From contig JAHIUN010000010.1 of NCBI GenBank assembly GCA_018817125.1, positions 1 to 36,766 of the forward strand: a DNA stretch of 36,766 nt, in the 5' to 3' direction. The notes beneath the pieces were generated by a model that saw only the letters and a list, made by a program, of their open reading frames with translations, was not told the DNA's origin and searched no databases. This document shows positions 13,978 through 27,862 of this stretch, piece after piece; the stretch's first letter is position 1; each line of letters starts with the position of its first letter. The translations under genes were made by a program, and so were the position numbers. Source of the DNA: Patescibacteria group bacterium (GTDB taxonomy: Bacteria > Patescibacteriota > Gracilibacteria > UM-FILTER-43-11).

Positions 13978-15558
13978 ATGGCAGTGTCCGCTGAACAATT
14001 AGTCACACCGGAGAACAGAGAGGTGAATGAAAACGGCGATGTGATCCGCAGCAAAATCGGCCGGCTTTTAGAAAACCCTTATTTTCAGCGGACGCTCGAT
14101 AAAGAGGCGTTAAAAAATTATCGGGATCTGGCTGAAAAAAAGGGTCACATTGACCCGAACGACACCGAAAATCTCAGTAAATTTTATGAGTTCATGGCCG
14201 ATCATTTTAAAGAAGCTGAAGTCTCCAAAAAACGCATCACTGGGCATGTAGAACAGGCGATTCAGGATAAGGTCATTACGGAAAAAGACAGGGTATTTTA
14301 CAAAAAGAACATGAAAGCCAATGTGGTGAGCGGGGAACAGATTGTTACCAAAGAAGCGTTGGAGCAGGCGGAAAAAGATATTCTGGAAAGCCTGGAAAAT
14401 CGCCGGAAAGAACGCAAAGAATATGATAATCTGGTCAGCAGCCCTTTGATTGAATCCGGTTTTTTACTGATTGATAAAAACAAAAAAATCCCTTTCCCGG
14501 ATGAGACGGGTTATTTGAACATGTCCGTTCCGGAACGCCGTAAGTGGCTTAAAGAAATTCGAAAGACTATTCCTCAGGCTAAAGAATATGCTGACAATCG
14601 TGAGAAAAAGGAAACAGAGGAGCTGGAAAAAGAATACGATATATTACTTCAGGCGGCCAAAAAGGAGGGGGTCATCGGAAATAAAACCCTTGAAAAATTC
14701 AAAGAATGGTTTAAGGGCCAGGAGGTGAAAGCGAAAACTTATGCCATTAGTCAATTCACCAAAGAAATGAACCGTTACAGAGTTTTGTGGAAAGACATTC
14801 GGAAGAACCTGAAGGGCAGTGCGCTTAGCCGTCTGGAGGCTCTGAGAGACAAAATGGGCTATACCGAATTGCGGAGCGAATTCATGAAAGAACAATATGG
14901 TGAAAAATCAGATCCTTCCCTTAAAATACTGAGTACGATTACCAACACAACTGTCAGAAAAGAAATCCTTCACGCCAAAAAATCGTTAAACCGAGGCGAG
15001 AAGAAAACATTTGTTGAGCGCCTGACCCATTATTTTTCCAGTAAACAGTCCGACCGGCAAGACGCCGTTTCGTATCAGGATAACGTCCGCGCCGCCCGTA
15101 AAAAGCATGATACGGCTTATGGGCAGAAGATCGCGGAAAATGCAGAGGCGTCTGACGAGAACAGAGGGTTGGAAGGCAGTCGCCAGAATCTTCAGATCCA
15201 TGATGTGGATGAAAACGCCGTTGAAAGAGCTCAGCCTGACACCCTCAGAAAATCTCACCCATCCCAGCCAACTAAGTCCCCTGAAATCCGGATTAAAAAG
15301 AGCACTGATCGGGCCTATCAGCGCAATACATTTGTGGATGAAAAAGGGCAAAAACGACGTGTGATCCGGGTCGGAGGTACCAAGGAAGGGGTACAGGCCT
15401 TTAATAATGAAGGGCTTTTAAATCGGGATAAAGACGAGCTGTCCATTATGGCCAAAGACGGCAGTAATATCGTAGAAATGAAGATGCGGGAGATCCGTGT
15501 GATGAAGGATGTGCTGAAGAAGAGCTTGGAGGAAGATAGCGTTGAAACAAATAAATAA
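13978..15558 (+). CDS. Unknown large charged, helical protein
   Basis: A 526-residue soluble protein that I do not recognise. It has no signal peptide and no membrane segment, is very rich in Lys, Glu and Arg, and most of residues 30-370 look alpha-helical, with several coiled-coil-like stretches (for example EQAEKDILESLENRRKERKE near 125). Residues 375-450 are low-complexity and polar, probably disordered. A small basic segment follows (DEKGQKRRVIRVGGTKEG near 455-475), then a terminal helix. A scaffold or nucleic-acid-associated role would fit but is speculation. The ATG follows GTAATAT with no Shine-Dalgarno. It converges with the GH15 gene across a foldback. Confidence 0.75.
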   Translation: MAVSAEQLVTPENREVNENGDVIRSKIGRLLENPYFQRTLDKEALKNYRDLAEKKGHIDPNDTENLSKFYEFMADHFKEAEVSKKRITGHVEQAIQDKVITEKDRVFYKKNMKANVVSGEQIVTKEALEQAEKDILESLENRRKERKEYDNLVSSPLIESGFLLIDKNKKIPFPDETGYLNMSVPERRKWLKEIRKTIPQAKEYADNREKKETEELEKEYDILLQAAKKEGVIGNKTLEKFKEWFKGQEVKAKTYAISQFTKEMNRYRVLWKDIRKNLKGSALSRLEALRDKMGYTELRSEFMKEQYGEKSDPSLKILSTITNTTVRKEILHAKKSLNRGEKKTFVERLTHYFSSKQSDRQDAVSYQDNVRAARKKHDTAYGQKIAENAEASDENRGLEGSRQNLQIHDVDENAVERAQPDTLRKSHPSQPTKSPEIRIKKSTDRAYQRNTFVDEKGQKRRVIRVGGTKEGVQAFNNEGLLNRDKDELSIMAKDGSNIVEMKMREIRVMKDVLKKSLEEDSVETNK

Positions 15559-21347: not shown

Positions 21348-22643
21348 ATGAAGTCCGAAGTTAAATTCATCAAAGGCCTGTTTAAAAAGGTAAAACCTTT
21401 TAGGCTCAGTCCCGAACAGGACGAGCGTATTTTAAAGGCTATTGATAATAGTCGGGCAGAAGGTGAGTTTGTTGCCTTGAAAAATAAACCCTCCATTTTT
21501 AATTTTTTAACACAAATAACCATGAATACGTTTAAAAAATACGTCGCGTCCGCAGTAGCGGTCGTGGTCGTGATCGCAGGAATGATGTATTTCAACCAGA
21601 ATTCCTACGCGTATCACCTTAATAAAGCCAAAGTTGCTCTGGCTCAGCTCGAAGCCGTTCTTGAGGGCAATCCTAACCAATTATCTCTCATTCCGGCCGC
21701 TTACGCGGAAGATGAAGAGGTTGTTGTTGATGAAGAGGCGGTAGAAGAACTGGTCGAAGAGATTGTCGATGAAACGGAAGAGGCTATTGAAGCCGCCGAA
21801 GACCTTACTGATCCTGAAGAACTTCAGGACGCTTTGGAGGATATCAGTGAAGTCCAGGAAGAAGAGGTCGATGTGCTTTCCGACGCAGCGGAAGTGGTTG
21901 AAGGCGAAGAAGTGGCTGAAGCCGTCGCTGACGCGCTTGAAACGACTGCCGAACAGCAAGAGTTGGTAGAAGAGGCCATCGAATTTGTGGAGGAGGCTAC
22001 CGAAAATGGCGAGGAAGAAGTCGCTATCGACATCGAGACCACTAAAGACAAAGAGACCGCCGAAGAAGAGTGTGCTGAAGGAGAAGATTGTGAGGAGGAG
22101 GCCGACGAAAAATTAGCCGAGGCACAAAAACGTTTTGAAGAAGCCCAGCAGGTCATGGAACAGCTGCGAGCCGGCGAGCACGATGGGGAAGCGCTCGCTA
22201 AACTGGAGATGAAAATGGAAAAAGTCCAGGCCGCTTTAGAACAAGGAAAAGTCGGTCGTGTTCATGGTCTGACCACCGCGGTTCAGGCGAAAGCCCGCAA
22301 TATGGAACGGAAGGTAGAAAAGGCCCAAAAGAAGGGTGAAGATGCCGATGAGCAGGATGAAGAAGAAGTGTCTGACGAAGACGTAGCAGATGAATCCGAA
22401 TCATCCGATGAATCCGTAGAGACGCAGGATTCTGCGTCTCAGGATGAAGAAGAGGTAGTTGCAGAAGAAGCCGAAGACCTTAAGGGCAAAAAAGATGAAG
22501 CGAAGATAAAAGGAAATAAGGTCGATGAATCTAATGAAGATGAATTGGAAGAAGATGGGGATGAAGATGGAGGTGCTTTTGACCTACGAGCCCCTAAGGG
22601 AAATCAAGAAGACAAGGAAAATCAGGGGAATAAAAAAGATTAA
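21348..22643 (+). CDS. Probable membrane anti-sigma factor with a DUF5667-like segment and acidic tail
   Basis: A 431-residue protein. A basic N-terminal stretch of about 60 residues (KFIKGLFKKVKPFRLSPEQDERIL) would face the cytosol and could hold the sigma factor. One membrane helix spans about 64-83 (YVASAVAVVVVIAGMMYF). The helix just outside, YHLNKAKVALAQLEAVLE, resembles DUF5667, a domain common in proteins encoded beside ECF sigma genes. From about residue 120 to the end it is extremely rich in Glu, Asp and Ala, with a more basic helical patch near 255-325 (AEAQKRFEEAQQVMEQL). The acidic extracytoplasmic tail could sense cations, wall polymers or pH, which is inference only. It lies 55 bases after the sigma gene. 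Confidence 0.7.
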   Translation: MKSEVKFIKGLFKKVKPFRLSPEQDERILKAIDNSRAEGEFVALKNKPSIFNFLTQITMNTFKKYVASAVAVVVVIAGMMYFNQNSYAYHLNKAKVALAQLEAVLEGNPNQLSLIPAAYAEDEEVVVDEEAVEELVEEIVDETEEAIEAAEDLTDPEELQDALEDISEVQEEEVDVLSDAAEVVEGEEVAEAVADALETTAEQQELVEEAIEFVEEATENGEEEVAIDIETTKDKETAEEECAEGEDCEEEADEKLAEAQKRFEEAQQVMEQLRAGEHDGEALAKLEMKMEKVQAALEQGKVGRVHGLTTAVQAKARNMERKVEKAQKKGEDADEQDEEEVSDEDVADESESSDESVETQDSASQDEEEVVAEEAEDLKGKKDEAKIKGNKVDESNEDELEEDGDEDGGAFDLRAPKGNQEDKENQGNKKD

Positions 22644-24354: not shown

Positions 24355-25515
24355 ATGAAAATCGTCAGCCGATTACTCATTATTATTTTTATCCTGTCCA
24401 CCGTTGCTATTCCATCCGTCAGTGCGGATCGGAGTGAAAAAGCCAAAGTCATCAAATTCGATAAAATTCATCACGACTTGATCGTGGAACGTCAGGATGG
24501 CAAACGATGGCTCATTCAGCACAACCGCGTTTGCGGGTCGATGAACACAGAATTCCCCGTCACGCTGGTTACGGACAATGAGGGGAACGTGAAGCAGTTA
24601 AAAGTAGCGGCGAATGAGATCTGCACTGTTTATAATGCCGTTCCTTATTCTGGAGAGGGGAAAGTGACCAAGCTGATTCGCAGTGAAAACCTGATTGTGC
24701 GCGATCATGAGGCAGAACTGGTGTGGTACAACAAAAAATACTTTATCGATTACGACAGCGCCCGTTGCCCGTTTTTACGGGATTATCTGAATGAACGGAT
24801 TTATTTATATCTGCCCGAAGATGAATTAAAAGGCGGTTATATCGTCTTGCCGGGCAATCGTGGCCAGTGCCGGATCAATTTCGTTCGGGAACTGGAAACG
24901 TTGGAAGCCGATGAGGGTGAGGTATCGCTAAAACTCAATGTCGATTCGCAAAACCAAAATAACCAGGTTTATTTTTACTGGGACGAACCGCAAAGCGATG
25001 AACGTTTGCTTTATCTCATCAGTTATAGCCGGTATCGTCTGAATCTTGCGGATTATGATTACTGGGAAATGCCGAATTTAAAACGAACCCGCGAGCATTC
25101 CTACACCATTACCGCGCTTGAAAATGGCCGGACTTATTACTTTTACGTCGCCGCCCTGAACGAATCGAGGCAGGTGAGTGAATGGACGGAGATCGTCGGC
25201 GAGCCAGTCGGTACAGGCGGGTTTAAGAATAATCCGGATCCGGATACTTTTGAGATTGAAATGGAAGAGGCAGATGACGGCTTTCGGCTGTATTGGCCCC
25301 GAAGGGATGATGCCTACAAATATTGGGTTTATTTTTACGTTAACGGCAGAGAAAACTTTTTTAAATACCTCCCGGCTGATGAAAACGAAATCATTATTCC
25401 CAAAAATCCGGAATACCTGAATAAACGTCTGCGCCTCACAGTTCGGGTTACTCCGTTAGAATCGCATAATCTTGTGTATTACGACGGACATTTCTGGTCT
25501 TATAAAGAGCAATAA
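24355..25515 (+). CDS. Secreted protein with fibronectin type III-like domains
   Basis: A 386-residue protein. A signal peptide spans about 1-24 (IIIFILSTVAIPSVSA). The N-terminal half, to about residue 190, is beta-rich with four cysteines (C60, C90, C139, C172 approximately) that could form disulfides. I do not recognise it. A fibronectin type III-like domain follows at about 205-285 (VYFYWDEP...YTITALENGRTYYFYVAALNESRQVSEW), and a second, weaker one at about 300-386. It probably acts in the envelope or outside the cell, in binding or adhesion. The DsbA-like protein in this window could form its disulfides, which is inference. The ATG follows TCCATC without a Shine-Dalgarno. Confidence 0.75.
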   Translation: MKIVSRLLIIIFILSTVAIPSVSADRSEKAKVIKFDKIHHDLIVERQDGKRWLIQHNRVCGSMNTEFPVTLVTDNEGNVKQLKVAANEICTVYNAVPYSGEGKVTKLIRSENLIVRDHEAELVWYNKKYFIDYDSARCPFLRDYLNERIYLYLPEDELKGGYIVLPGNRGQCRINFVRELETLEADEGEVSLKLNVDSQNQNNQVYFYWDEPQSDERLLYLISYSRYRLNLADYDYWEMPNLKRTREHSYTITALENGRTYYFYVAALNESRQVSEWTEIVGEPVGTGGFKNNPDPDTFEIEMEEADDGFRLYWPRRDDAYKYWVYFYVNGRENFFKYLPADENEIIIPKNPEYLNKRLRLTVRVTPLESHNLVYYDGHFWSYKEQ

Positions 25516-25565: not shown

Positions 25566-26699
25566 TTATGGGCGGGGTTTGCGTGTGGATTCCCCAGCTA
25601 TCCGTGTTTTTTTAGCGAGGATTTCTTGTCTTAATTCCTCCGCTTCTTCAGCAGGTGTTTTTTTAGGCGTTTTTTCCGGTCCCCATTCTTCATCACTCTC
25701 GAAACCGCCTGTCCATTCTTTCACGAAAGCATCTGAAACCTGTACAGGCTTTTCTTCACCCGCTTCAGCTACGTAAACAGCCTCTTTTCCTGCTGCCTGG
25801 GCTGGGAAGTCTGCGATAAGATTATCGATTTCGTTTTTAATGGCCCCTTTTTCAATGGCGAGATAATCCGTCCCCAGCTTCTCCGCGGCCTCTTGGGATC
25901 GGGTCCTGTCCCGCACGCGCTGGTCGATTTGGGATTCAAAAGCTTCAATTTCTTCCTGATCGCCAGCGGCATGAAGCTCGATTACTTTTTTTACGAGGGA
26001 ATTCAATTCATCGCCTTCCTGAAGGACTTTTACATATTTCATTGTGTCCTCCGGGCTGGTTCCCATTTCATTCTGCTGATAAGCGCGGCCAAAAAGGATG
26101 TCATTAGCTATTTTTAAATCCTTCGGATTGAAATCTTTTAAGGCCGAACGCAGATAATTATAATATTTTTTGGATATTTCCCTGCTGACCTCTTTGCCTT
26201 TTGCCGCCTCATCCCTCTCGATCTTTGCGTATTCTGCTCGCGCCGGAAGAGGACTCTTATCAGGTTCAGCAGCAGTCGGCGTAACATCACTTGCCCTGGC
26301 CTTCTTGGCATCCAGCGCTTTAGACGCGCCTTTTTCTTCAAAATCCAAAATTTGTTTTTCCTCATTCGTAAATTCCGGTTTTTTTGGTTCAGGTTTTTCT
26401 TCAAAATCCAGAATCCTTTTTTCTTCCTCACTAAGCTCACGCATTTTCAGTTTTTCCATTTTTTTAAGACCGACTTTTGCTTTTGCGGTAAGCTGACCCC
26501 CCTTTTTCATTTCTTCCCAGGGGGAAGGCTCTTCCGTCGATCCGGACATATCCGGTGCCTTTTGTCCAAAAGGGACTTCCATAGGGTCTATTTTTGAATC
26601 ATCCGGTTCGGGCATATCCAGCGCCTCATCCACATTCGCCAGCCGGCTTTCTTTGCCGAAATTAAAGAGATTAGATAATTTGTTAAATAGCTCCTTCAT
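25566..26699 (-). CDS. Unknown acidic protein, double-tagged paralogue A
   Basis: A 377-residue soluble protein that I do not recognise. It opens MKELFNKLSNLFNFGKESRL and ends AGESTRKPRP. Its neighbour 26725-27468 opens and ends almost identically, although the middles differ. The N-terminal tag would form an amphipathic helix. Residues 20-165 are acidic and probably disordered, and contain a short repeat (EEKRILDFEEK then EEKQILDFEEK). Residues 175-300 look helical (SREISKKYYNYLRSALKDFNPKDLKIANDILFG). It is the last gene of a leftward three-gene run and ends at a strong terminator. The shared tags may direct both proteins to the same place or partner. Confidence 0.75.
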   Translation of the reverse strand: MKELFNKLSNLFNFGKESRLANVDEALDMPEPDDSKIDPMEVPFGQKAPDMSGSTEEPSPWEEMKKGGQLTAKAKVGLKKMEKLKMRELSEEEKRILDFEEKPEPKKPEFTNEEKQILDFEEKGASKALDAKKARASDVTPTAAEPDKSPLPARAEYAKIERDEAAKGKEVSREISKKYYNYLRSALKDFNPKDLKIANDILFGRAYQQNEMGTSPEDTMKYVKVLQEGDELNSLVKKVIELHAAGDQEEIEAFESQIDQRVRDRTRSQEAAEKLGTDYLAIEKGAIKNEIDNLIADFPAQAAGKEAVYVAEAGEEKPVQVSDAFVKEWTGGFESDEEWGPEKTPKKTPAEEAEELRQEILAKKTRIAGESTRKPRP

Positions 26700-26724
26700 A
26701 ACTCTTGCGTTAGGTAATTATTTT

Positions 26725-27468
26725 TTATTTTTTAAGGTTTCTGGTTGATTCACCGGCGACCTGAGTTGTTTCACCCTCGTCAGAAAGATCCATTGGTTCA
26801 AAAGGACTCTCAGCCTCTGCTTCAACACCTGCTTTATGGGCAGCCGTCATGAGCGCCTCGTCCGTTTTTTGCCCTTCACCTTCCCCCTCTTCCATCATTT
26901 GGGTCACTTCTTTTTCGGTAAAGGCCATTTCTTTTTCCCCTTCTTCAGAAAGGTCTAATGGTTCGAAAGGTCCCATTTCTTCTGTTTTGGCAACAGCCGT
27001 TTTTTCTTCACCGGCTTTACCCATAAATTCTTTACCCAGCTCGGCGAGGCCTTCGCGGGTTTTACTTTTTTCTTTCGCGTTTTTCATGGAAGCCATAGCA
27101 GCATCCTCTAAAGTCTTTTTAGCCTTTTCTGTCGTGCCACGTGACTCCATCGGGCTTTCAGGCAGATCGGCTTTTGCCCCTTTAAATGCCTCGTCGGCGT
27201 CTTTGTCTATTTTTCCTTCGCTAAATACATCTTTTACAGCTTCTTCTTTTGCTCCTGTTAACCAGGAAAGGGCTTTTTCAGCTTTTTCAGACCCTTCGTG
27301 TTCCGCTTTTTCGACCTTTTCTTCAGAGGTTTTTGGAGATTCTTTTTCTGCCCCCTGTACTTCCTGTATTTTTTCAACTGGCTTTAGGGCCTCTTCCCCT
27401 TCGTTTATCAGGCGATGCTCCTTGCCGAAGCTGAACAGATTAGATAATTTATTGAATAATTCTTTCAT
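26725..27468 (-). CDS. Unknown acidic protein, double-tagged paralogue B
   Basis: A 247-residue protein that I do not recognise. It opens MKELFNKLSNLFSFGKEHRL, 17 of 20 residues the same as paralogue A, and ends AGESTRNLKK. The rest is very rich in Glu, Lys and Ala and is probably disordered. It contains its own repeated motif, PFEPLDLSEEGE near 165 and PFEPMDLSDEGE near 225. No cysteine, signal peptide or membrane segment is seen. It lies 25 bases upstream of paralogue A on the same strand. The tags could be a membrane-touching helix and a C-terminal sorting or binding motif; that is inference. Confidence 0.75.
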   Translation of the reverse strand: MKELFNKLSNLFSFGKEHRLINEGEEALKPVEKIQEVQGAEKESPKTSEEKVEKAEHEGSEKAEKALSWLTGAKEEAVKDVFSEGKIDKDADEAFKGAKADLPESPMESRGTTEKAKKTLEDAAMASMKNAKEKSKTREGLAELGKEFMGKAGEEKTAVAKTEEMGPFEPLDLSEEGEKEMAFTEKEVTQMMEEGEGEGQKTDEALMTAAHKAGVEAEAESPFEPMDLSDEGETTQVAGESTRNLKK

Positions 27469-27514: not shown

Positions 27515-27862
27515 TTATAATTTTGCGAGTTCCGCCTCCAGGTCCATGGCGCTTTCTTCGATCTTGTTCTGGATTTCCTCCAGCTTTTTCCGCGCCTCGG
27601 CATTGTTCTGGTTGATAGCCGTCTTTAGTTGGTTCAGCGCTTCGTCGAGTTCTTTTTGCTCGGCCGTCAGGATCTCTTTTCGTTTTTCTTCATCTGATTC
27701 ATCGATTTGGCCTAATTGCTCTTTAGCCTTGGCCCCGATAGCTTCGCAATGCTTGTTGAAGGCTTCATGCAGGCGGTTCAGGTAATCGCGATGGTAATCG
27801 ATTGTGTCCTGATAGAACTTGGAGAGCGTGTTTTTGTCGGTGGGGAGGTTCTGTTCGGCCAT
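27515..27862 (-). CDS. Small coiled-coil protein
   Basis: A 115-residue soluble protein predicted to be almost entirely alpha-helical. It is rich in Glu, Lys, Gln and Asn with heptad-like spacing (NRLHEAFNKHCEAIGAKAKEQLGQIDESDEEKRKEILTAEQ, then ALNQLKTAINQNNAEARKKLEEIQNKIEESAMDLEAELAKL). One cysteine is present. I recognise no family. It is first in the leftward run that contains the tagged pair, so the three products may form one complex. The ATG has no Shine-Dalgarno. Confidence 0.75.
   Translation of the reverse strand: MAEQNLPTDKNTLSKFYQDTIDYHRDYLNRLHEAFNKHCEAIGAKAKEQLGQIDESDEEKRKEILTAEQKELDEALNQLKTAINQNNAEARKKLEEIQNKIEESAMDLEAELAKL

Follow-up and report, generated by a model that had tools for sequence, protein, structure and literature searches.

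The double-glycine leaders of peptidase-ABC exporters are short, modular, non-Sec leaders at the N-termini of unrelated cargos. T7SSb LXG effectors contain an LXG domain of ~200 aa and have small helical Lap/WXG100 partners, the targeting peptides of microcompartments and encapsulins consist of an amphipathic helix and a linker, and T4SS substrates bear a positively charged C-terminal signal. The T6SS effector-marker domains RIX and WHIX represent a shared module carried by polymorphic, otherwise unrelated effectors (PMC10435454, PMC12135965). The tag analyzed here resembles double-glycine leaders in being a short, modular, non-Sec leader at the N-termini of unrelated cargos, but differs from them in its core, R-(L/F)-(V/I)-F, and in cargos of up to 3349 aa; moreover, a Gly-Gly pair lies within +4..+11 of the core arginine in only 9 out of 60 tags. 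As in T7SSb LXG systems, the gene for a larger, variable protein is directly preceded by one for a small helical-hairpin protein, but the tag comprises ~15–30 residues rather than a 200-aa domain, and no Pfam match to LXG or WXG100 was found in the cargos or in the coiled-coil partner. The tag is a shared module like RIX and WHIX, but takes the form of a short, linear motif at the N-termini of Patescibacteria proteins, and would only putatively mark secreted proteins. The tags of our locus share the helix and linker of microcompartment and encapsulin peptides. The Patescibacteria T4SS (PMC12102498) is a candidate export machine sometimes encoded next to tagged genes, but it occurs with or without the tag. 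A search of open-access full texts, with subscription papers and preprints mostly outside its reach, returned no title or abstract describing such a tag.

The 36.8-kb window, that is, the whole stretch of DNA analyzed (36,766 nucleotides), is one entire contig (C16) within a 1.03-Mb Candidatus Peregrinibacteria genome (G000), whose nearest named GTDB relatives are Candidatus Peregrinibacteria MAGs. Its minus strand encodes two adjacent acidic proteins, protein b of 377 aa (25566..26699; net charge -17) and protein a of 247 aa (26725..27468; net charge -23), both free of cysteine and both without a match among Pfam and PHROG families. Their start sequences, MKELFNKLSNLFNFGKESRL and MKELFNKLSNLFSFGKEHRL, share the pattern MKELFNKLSNLF(N/S)FGKE(S/H)RL. 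The N-terminal tag is MKELFNKLSNLFNFGKESRLAN in protein b (26634..26699, minus strand; HMM E 6e-20 with our first profile, A1; with A5, a more diverse one, 8e-10) and MKELFNKLSNLFSFGKEHRLIN in protein a (27403..27468, minus strand; 7e-21 and 4e-11, respectively). Close to their C-termini both proteins have AGESTR (25581..25598 in protein b and 26740..26757 in protein a, minus strand), followed by KPRP in the 377-aa protein and NLKK in the 247-aa protein. Between these ends, protein b has two ILDFEEK repeats (26394..26414 and 26331–26351, minus strand), and protein a has PFEPLDLS (26947..26970) and PFEPMDLS (26782–26805) on the same strand. Both ORFs, their shared ends and the repeats, from which an earlier note on this DNA had started, are thus real. 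The note's description of the middles as different holds for the internal repeats, but a weak low-complexity similarity continues downstream of the tag (27% across 195 aa; E 4e-10, uncorrected for composition). Because this similarity reaches beyond the tag, the two proteins are likely distant paralogues. When one of the proteins was used to search the entire genome, the sole match besides itself was the N-terminus of the other; together with the recurrence of the two-gene arrangement in relatives (see below), this exceeds what chance would give. No relatives of the 247-aa protein were found in viral contigs. For the 377-aa protein, AlphaFold gave mostly low-confidence helices and disorder (pLDDT 52); a helix is predicted at residues 2–21, and the remainder of the model was rejected for interpretation. 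The window tags are amphipathic, with a moment of 0.45–0.49 (P 0.01–0.02 versus shuffles). Convergent with the pair lies a gene for an exported protein with an fn3 match (24355..25515, plus strand), which is syntenic beside the tagged genes in several relatives and is regarded as context of the pair, a functional link being putative. Two further ORFs of the window, 13978–15558 (526 aa) and 21348–22643 (431 aa), have no Pfam match at 1e-5.

Comparison of sequences across genomes identifies the shared N-terminus of the pair as a lineage-specific form of a class-wide modular N-terminal tag. Profiles were made stepwise from N-termini (A1, A3, A5, A6 and A7), reaching ever more families of the class; A1 matches with E above ~0.01 in short frames were mostly noise. 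The A7 profile, which has 28 positions, matches 88 out of 353 genomes of the class at the genome match cutoff of E <= 0.005. A sample of 287 genomes from the phylum gave 11 positives, every one of them a member of the class, and none was found among ~260 genomes of other classes. As a held-out set, we used 60 fetched matches, none of which had contributed to profile building. All 60 begin at most 41 codons from the start of their open frames (100–3349 codons), with start codons assigned mechanically; the search covers six whole frames, so the N-terminal position is not built in. The bodies of the held-out proteins are mostly without mutual BLAST matches, and the motif stands at the N-terminus of such unrelated bodies in 60/60 cases. 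The core, ‘LFKENRLVF..GPE.P’, is located near the very start of dozens of otherwise unrelated, cysteine-poor proteins. Aligned on its invariant arginine, the consensus reads N-L-F-K-(E/P)-(N/K)-R-(L/F)-(V/I)-F-x-(A/G)-(G/P)-(P/E), its core being summarized as (L/F)-F-K-(E/P)-N-R-(L/F)-(V/I)-F-x-(A/G)-(G/P), and the region downstream is enriched in Pro, Glu and Gly, forming a disordered Pro/Glu-rich linker. A strict core regular expression matched 47 of the 60 held-out N-termini but had no match in the 42,336 internal residues; in 174 neighbouring ORFs it matched three N-termini and one internal site in 32,797 residues, and at least two of these three N-termini evidently belong to further tagged genes.

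In the window's genome, a third tagged gene is unlinked to the pair (contig C10, 569 aa, MEFLKNTYRELLENWNFSKENRLVFEEAPKPEPE). In most relatives that were read, one to several genes adjoining the coiled-coil gene share looser N-termini, for example MKNLFHLLSVTLGTLRENRLVFAGPE or MKNLFKNFIDLLFNKRFAFFAGPE. Minimal tags, MFKENRLIFLGDPEG and MKPKRLVFRNPEGG, start almost at the methionine; because of this, the amphipathic helix of the window pair is a lineage-specific extension of the tag. Families f3, f7, f10, f14 and f16 yielded no tag at E <= 0.005. In f10 and f14, VirB4 genes have many in-frame TGA codons, which suggests that UGA is recoded there, and this may hide tag matches. A weak HMM match, internal at position ~60, in DNA polymerase III delta-like proteins (contig C7 of the window's genome and orthologues) was treated as chance.

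In codons 2–20, the two genes of the pair differ by 10 synonymous versus 2 non-synonymous codon differences. Furthermore, the first 158 nt of the 377-aa gene are 84% identical to those of its counterpart in a sister species, the proteins being only ~33% identical; the N-terminus is thus held by purifying selection while the body changes. A sister species of the same genus (G001) has the same three-gene order, the coiled-coil gene followed by two tagged genes; a genome from a different genus of this family (G005) keeps the order with extra genes inserted. The earlier note had proposed that both ends serve as targeting or assembly tags and had called for a search for further proteins bearing them. 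For the N-terminus, this proposal is supported in that it behaves as a modular tag of the targeting type: it is under purifying selection, is found widely and starts many unrelated proteins throughout the class. AGESTR, on the other hand, has not kept its place as a second tag of equal standing. Its counterparts in the sister species are loose only (ISTRQPK and PTRKPRQ) and further out are absent, and a C-terminal tag was rejected beyond the genus; by these comparisons AGESTR is a genus-level element only.

Composition was analyzed for 55 tagged proteins, each 150 aa or longer. The hydrophobic segment expected at the N-terminus of Sec-exported proteins reached the cutoff in 0/55, a TM-like window is present in 2%, and the window proteins have no cysteine for a lipobox. 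Pooled cysteine amounts to 0.23% in tagged proteins versus 0.87% in neighbours (P 6e-7), an approximately four-fold depletion, and to 1.14% in hydrophobicity-matched neighbours. Among 59 held-out proteins, GDSL was recognized in two, lysozyme in one and GGDEF in one, most bodies having no recognisable domain. An 853-aa tagged protein (G050) combines Phage_lysozyme2 and GDSL lipase domains, the matches being modest (E ~1e-7), and another (G061) has a metallophosphoesterase match; PDB searches for the lysozyme and metallophosphoesterase cargos added nothing. Because the lysozyme and lipase domains sit in proteins without a Sec signal, they point to a possible alternative exit. The GGDEF cargo (G339:C5, L294; 1653 aa) has a diguanylate-cyclase domain (GGEEF), which would fit a role in the cytoplasm or, alternatively, transfer into the cytosol of a different cell.

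Upstream of the tagged pair is the gene for a 115-aa coiled-coil protein (27515..27862, minus strand), predicted by AlphaFold to be an alpha-helical hairpin (helices 10–51 and 58–114; pLDDT 88). A foldseek search with this model gave no significant homologue, the best hits being generic helical hairpins (E 0.46). Within the family, 16 out of 18 genomes have a homologue, as against 0 of 40 other class genomes sampled, and in most stretches read, tagged genes are located beside them. In addition, in a genome of a different family (G332), a tagged gene is immediately preceded by a distant homologue, which matched at E 8e-12 when a small set of targets was searched. Small co-directional ORFs are moderately enriched directly upstream of tagged genes (23/70 versus 20/126 control genes, P 0.007), and several of the small helical ORFs upstream of other tagged genes are mutually similar. 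Thus, of the earlier suggestion that the coiled-coil gene and the pair form a run and encode a complex, the linked partner stands, but a single closed three-gene complex finds no support, because the tag is common to many unlinked genes, including the one on contig C10. The small helical-hairpin proteins may instead act as chaperones or adaptors.

Our preferred reading, in which we place about even confidence, is that the tag is a class-wide protein-level address, that is, a non-Sec export or surface-delivery signal with a putative class-specific receptor. Tagged proteins begin with a short amphipathic or aromatic stretch and the core, continue with a Pro/Glu-rich linker that is disordered, and then differ in unrelated bodies; the tag would sort envelope, surface or effector-like proteins. 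A receptor specific to the class would read it, and small partners that form helical hairpins, the 115-aa coiled-coil protein among them, would assist some cargos as chaperones or adaptors. The cargos would evolve fast, contain little cysteine and act on the cell envelope or outside it, some of them on a bacterial host. This reading draws on the position of the tag, its restriction to the class, its conservation next to divergent bodies, the lack of Sec and membrane signals, the cysteine depletion, the linked small helical ORFs and the wall or lipid hydrolase domains of a few cargos. Counting against export, the GGDEF cargo, with its cytoplasmic-type domain, fits only if it is delivered into the cytosol of another cell, and cysteine depletion is also found in cytoplasmic structural proteins. 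More tentatively, and with doubts prevailing, Peregrinibacteria and related families of the class may have an undescribed export route with its own FKENRLVF signal, its own adaptors of the helical-hairpin type and dozens of cargos that are restricted to the lineage and poor in cysteine. Of these cargos, some (wall hydrolases, lipases, a diguanylate cyclase) would be delivered into or onto host bacteria.

Export competes with a reading close to the idea of the earlier note, according to which the tag serves localisation or assembly inside the cell, its N-terminal helix binding the inner membrane face, a pole or a scaffold and gathering unrelated cytoplasmic proteins into a structure. The amphipathicity and the predicted helix of the window tags, the many coiled-coil bodies and the GGDEF cargo, which would work in the cytoplasm, all agree with it. 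However, conservation does not lie in the amphipathic part, which is missing from the minimal tags, and cysteine depletion together with wall and lipid hydrolase domains better fits an extracytoplasmic fate; we consider an intracellular motif rather improbable, yet deserving attention. Loading of cargo into a protein compartment is a related idea, since a short amphipathic helix, a disordered linker and unrelated cargo recall encapsulation peptides. Nevertheless, neither the BMC shell family PF00936 (0/58) nor the encapsulin family PF04454 (0/58) was found in the 58 relatives, although positive controls matched, and targeting to these two shell types was rejected; loading into some other, undescribed shell type is possible, and encapsulation as such is very improbable. 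Least probable of all, to a degree that we consider negligible, is that the similarity of the pair reflects chance or a recent tandem duplication without a functional tag. The genes are indeed in tandem and weakly similar past the tag, but the predominance of synonymous differences in the tag codons and the occurrence of the tag on unrelated proteins across the class rule this out, so the recent duplication that the earlier note had named as a possible refutation of its own proposal does not explain the shared N-terminus.

The tag might also be a substrate signal specifically of the Patescibacteria type IV secretion system of the MPF_FATA type. In part of the family, coiled-coil or tagged genes adjoin VirB4 and TrbL/VirB6-like genes (these and other neighbour names were given by eye from sequence, VirB4-like conservation alone having been measured class-wide). 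However, VirB4 was found in 50/50 genomes tested, tag-bearing or not, and being universal, its co-occurrence with the tag is uninformative. Moreover, the linkage to T4SS genes is not general, and the charge of the C-terminal 20 residues equals that of neighbours (P 0.44). According to PMC12102498, nearly all members of the phylum have the system, which lacks relaxases through loss and is without known substrates; this leaves room for such a signal, but the same phylum-wide presence contrasts with the absence of the tag outside the class. Overall, we regard a signal specific to this machine as unlikely. It is partly a special case of the export reading, and the likelihoods given here apply to the statements as worded. 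Class genomes have 2 to 6 VirB4-like matches each.

Among the major questions about Patescibacteria is the nature of their interaction with hosts, and the members of this class are tiny, probably host-dependent bacteria. Giant surface proteins are suspected to take part in host attachment in the related Absconditabacteria (Vampirococcus; PMC8080830), and metaproteomics of Gracilibacteria (PMC11452946) provides related context. Being defined by sequence, the tag allows candidate surface or effector proteins, most of them without a recognisable domain, to be listed for an entire uncultured class on the basis of genomes only, and together with the small partners it offers a handle for finding the machine that reads it.

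Two further arrangements of tagged genes were also observed. In a conserved locus, at L185, L186, L187, L188 and L189 (in G041, G112, G089, G072 and G108, respectively), a triosephosphate-isomerase-like gene is followed by a gene for a giant tagged protein and one for an apparently Sec-exported protein. The giant proteins of this locus have 1484–2418 aa, with 3344 aa reached in G104 (L260), and most of the Sec-exported proteins have an F(P/S)Y.(S/T)FNNF-type motif, with no Pfam match where tested. The other arrangement, at L113 (G007:C13:15000-22100), is an alternation of tagged genes with paralogous genes on the opposite strand, which encode lipoprotein-like products (231–259 aa, GC-x-HGAA type); it is reminiscent of effector/immunity arrangements.
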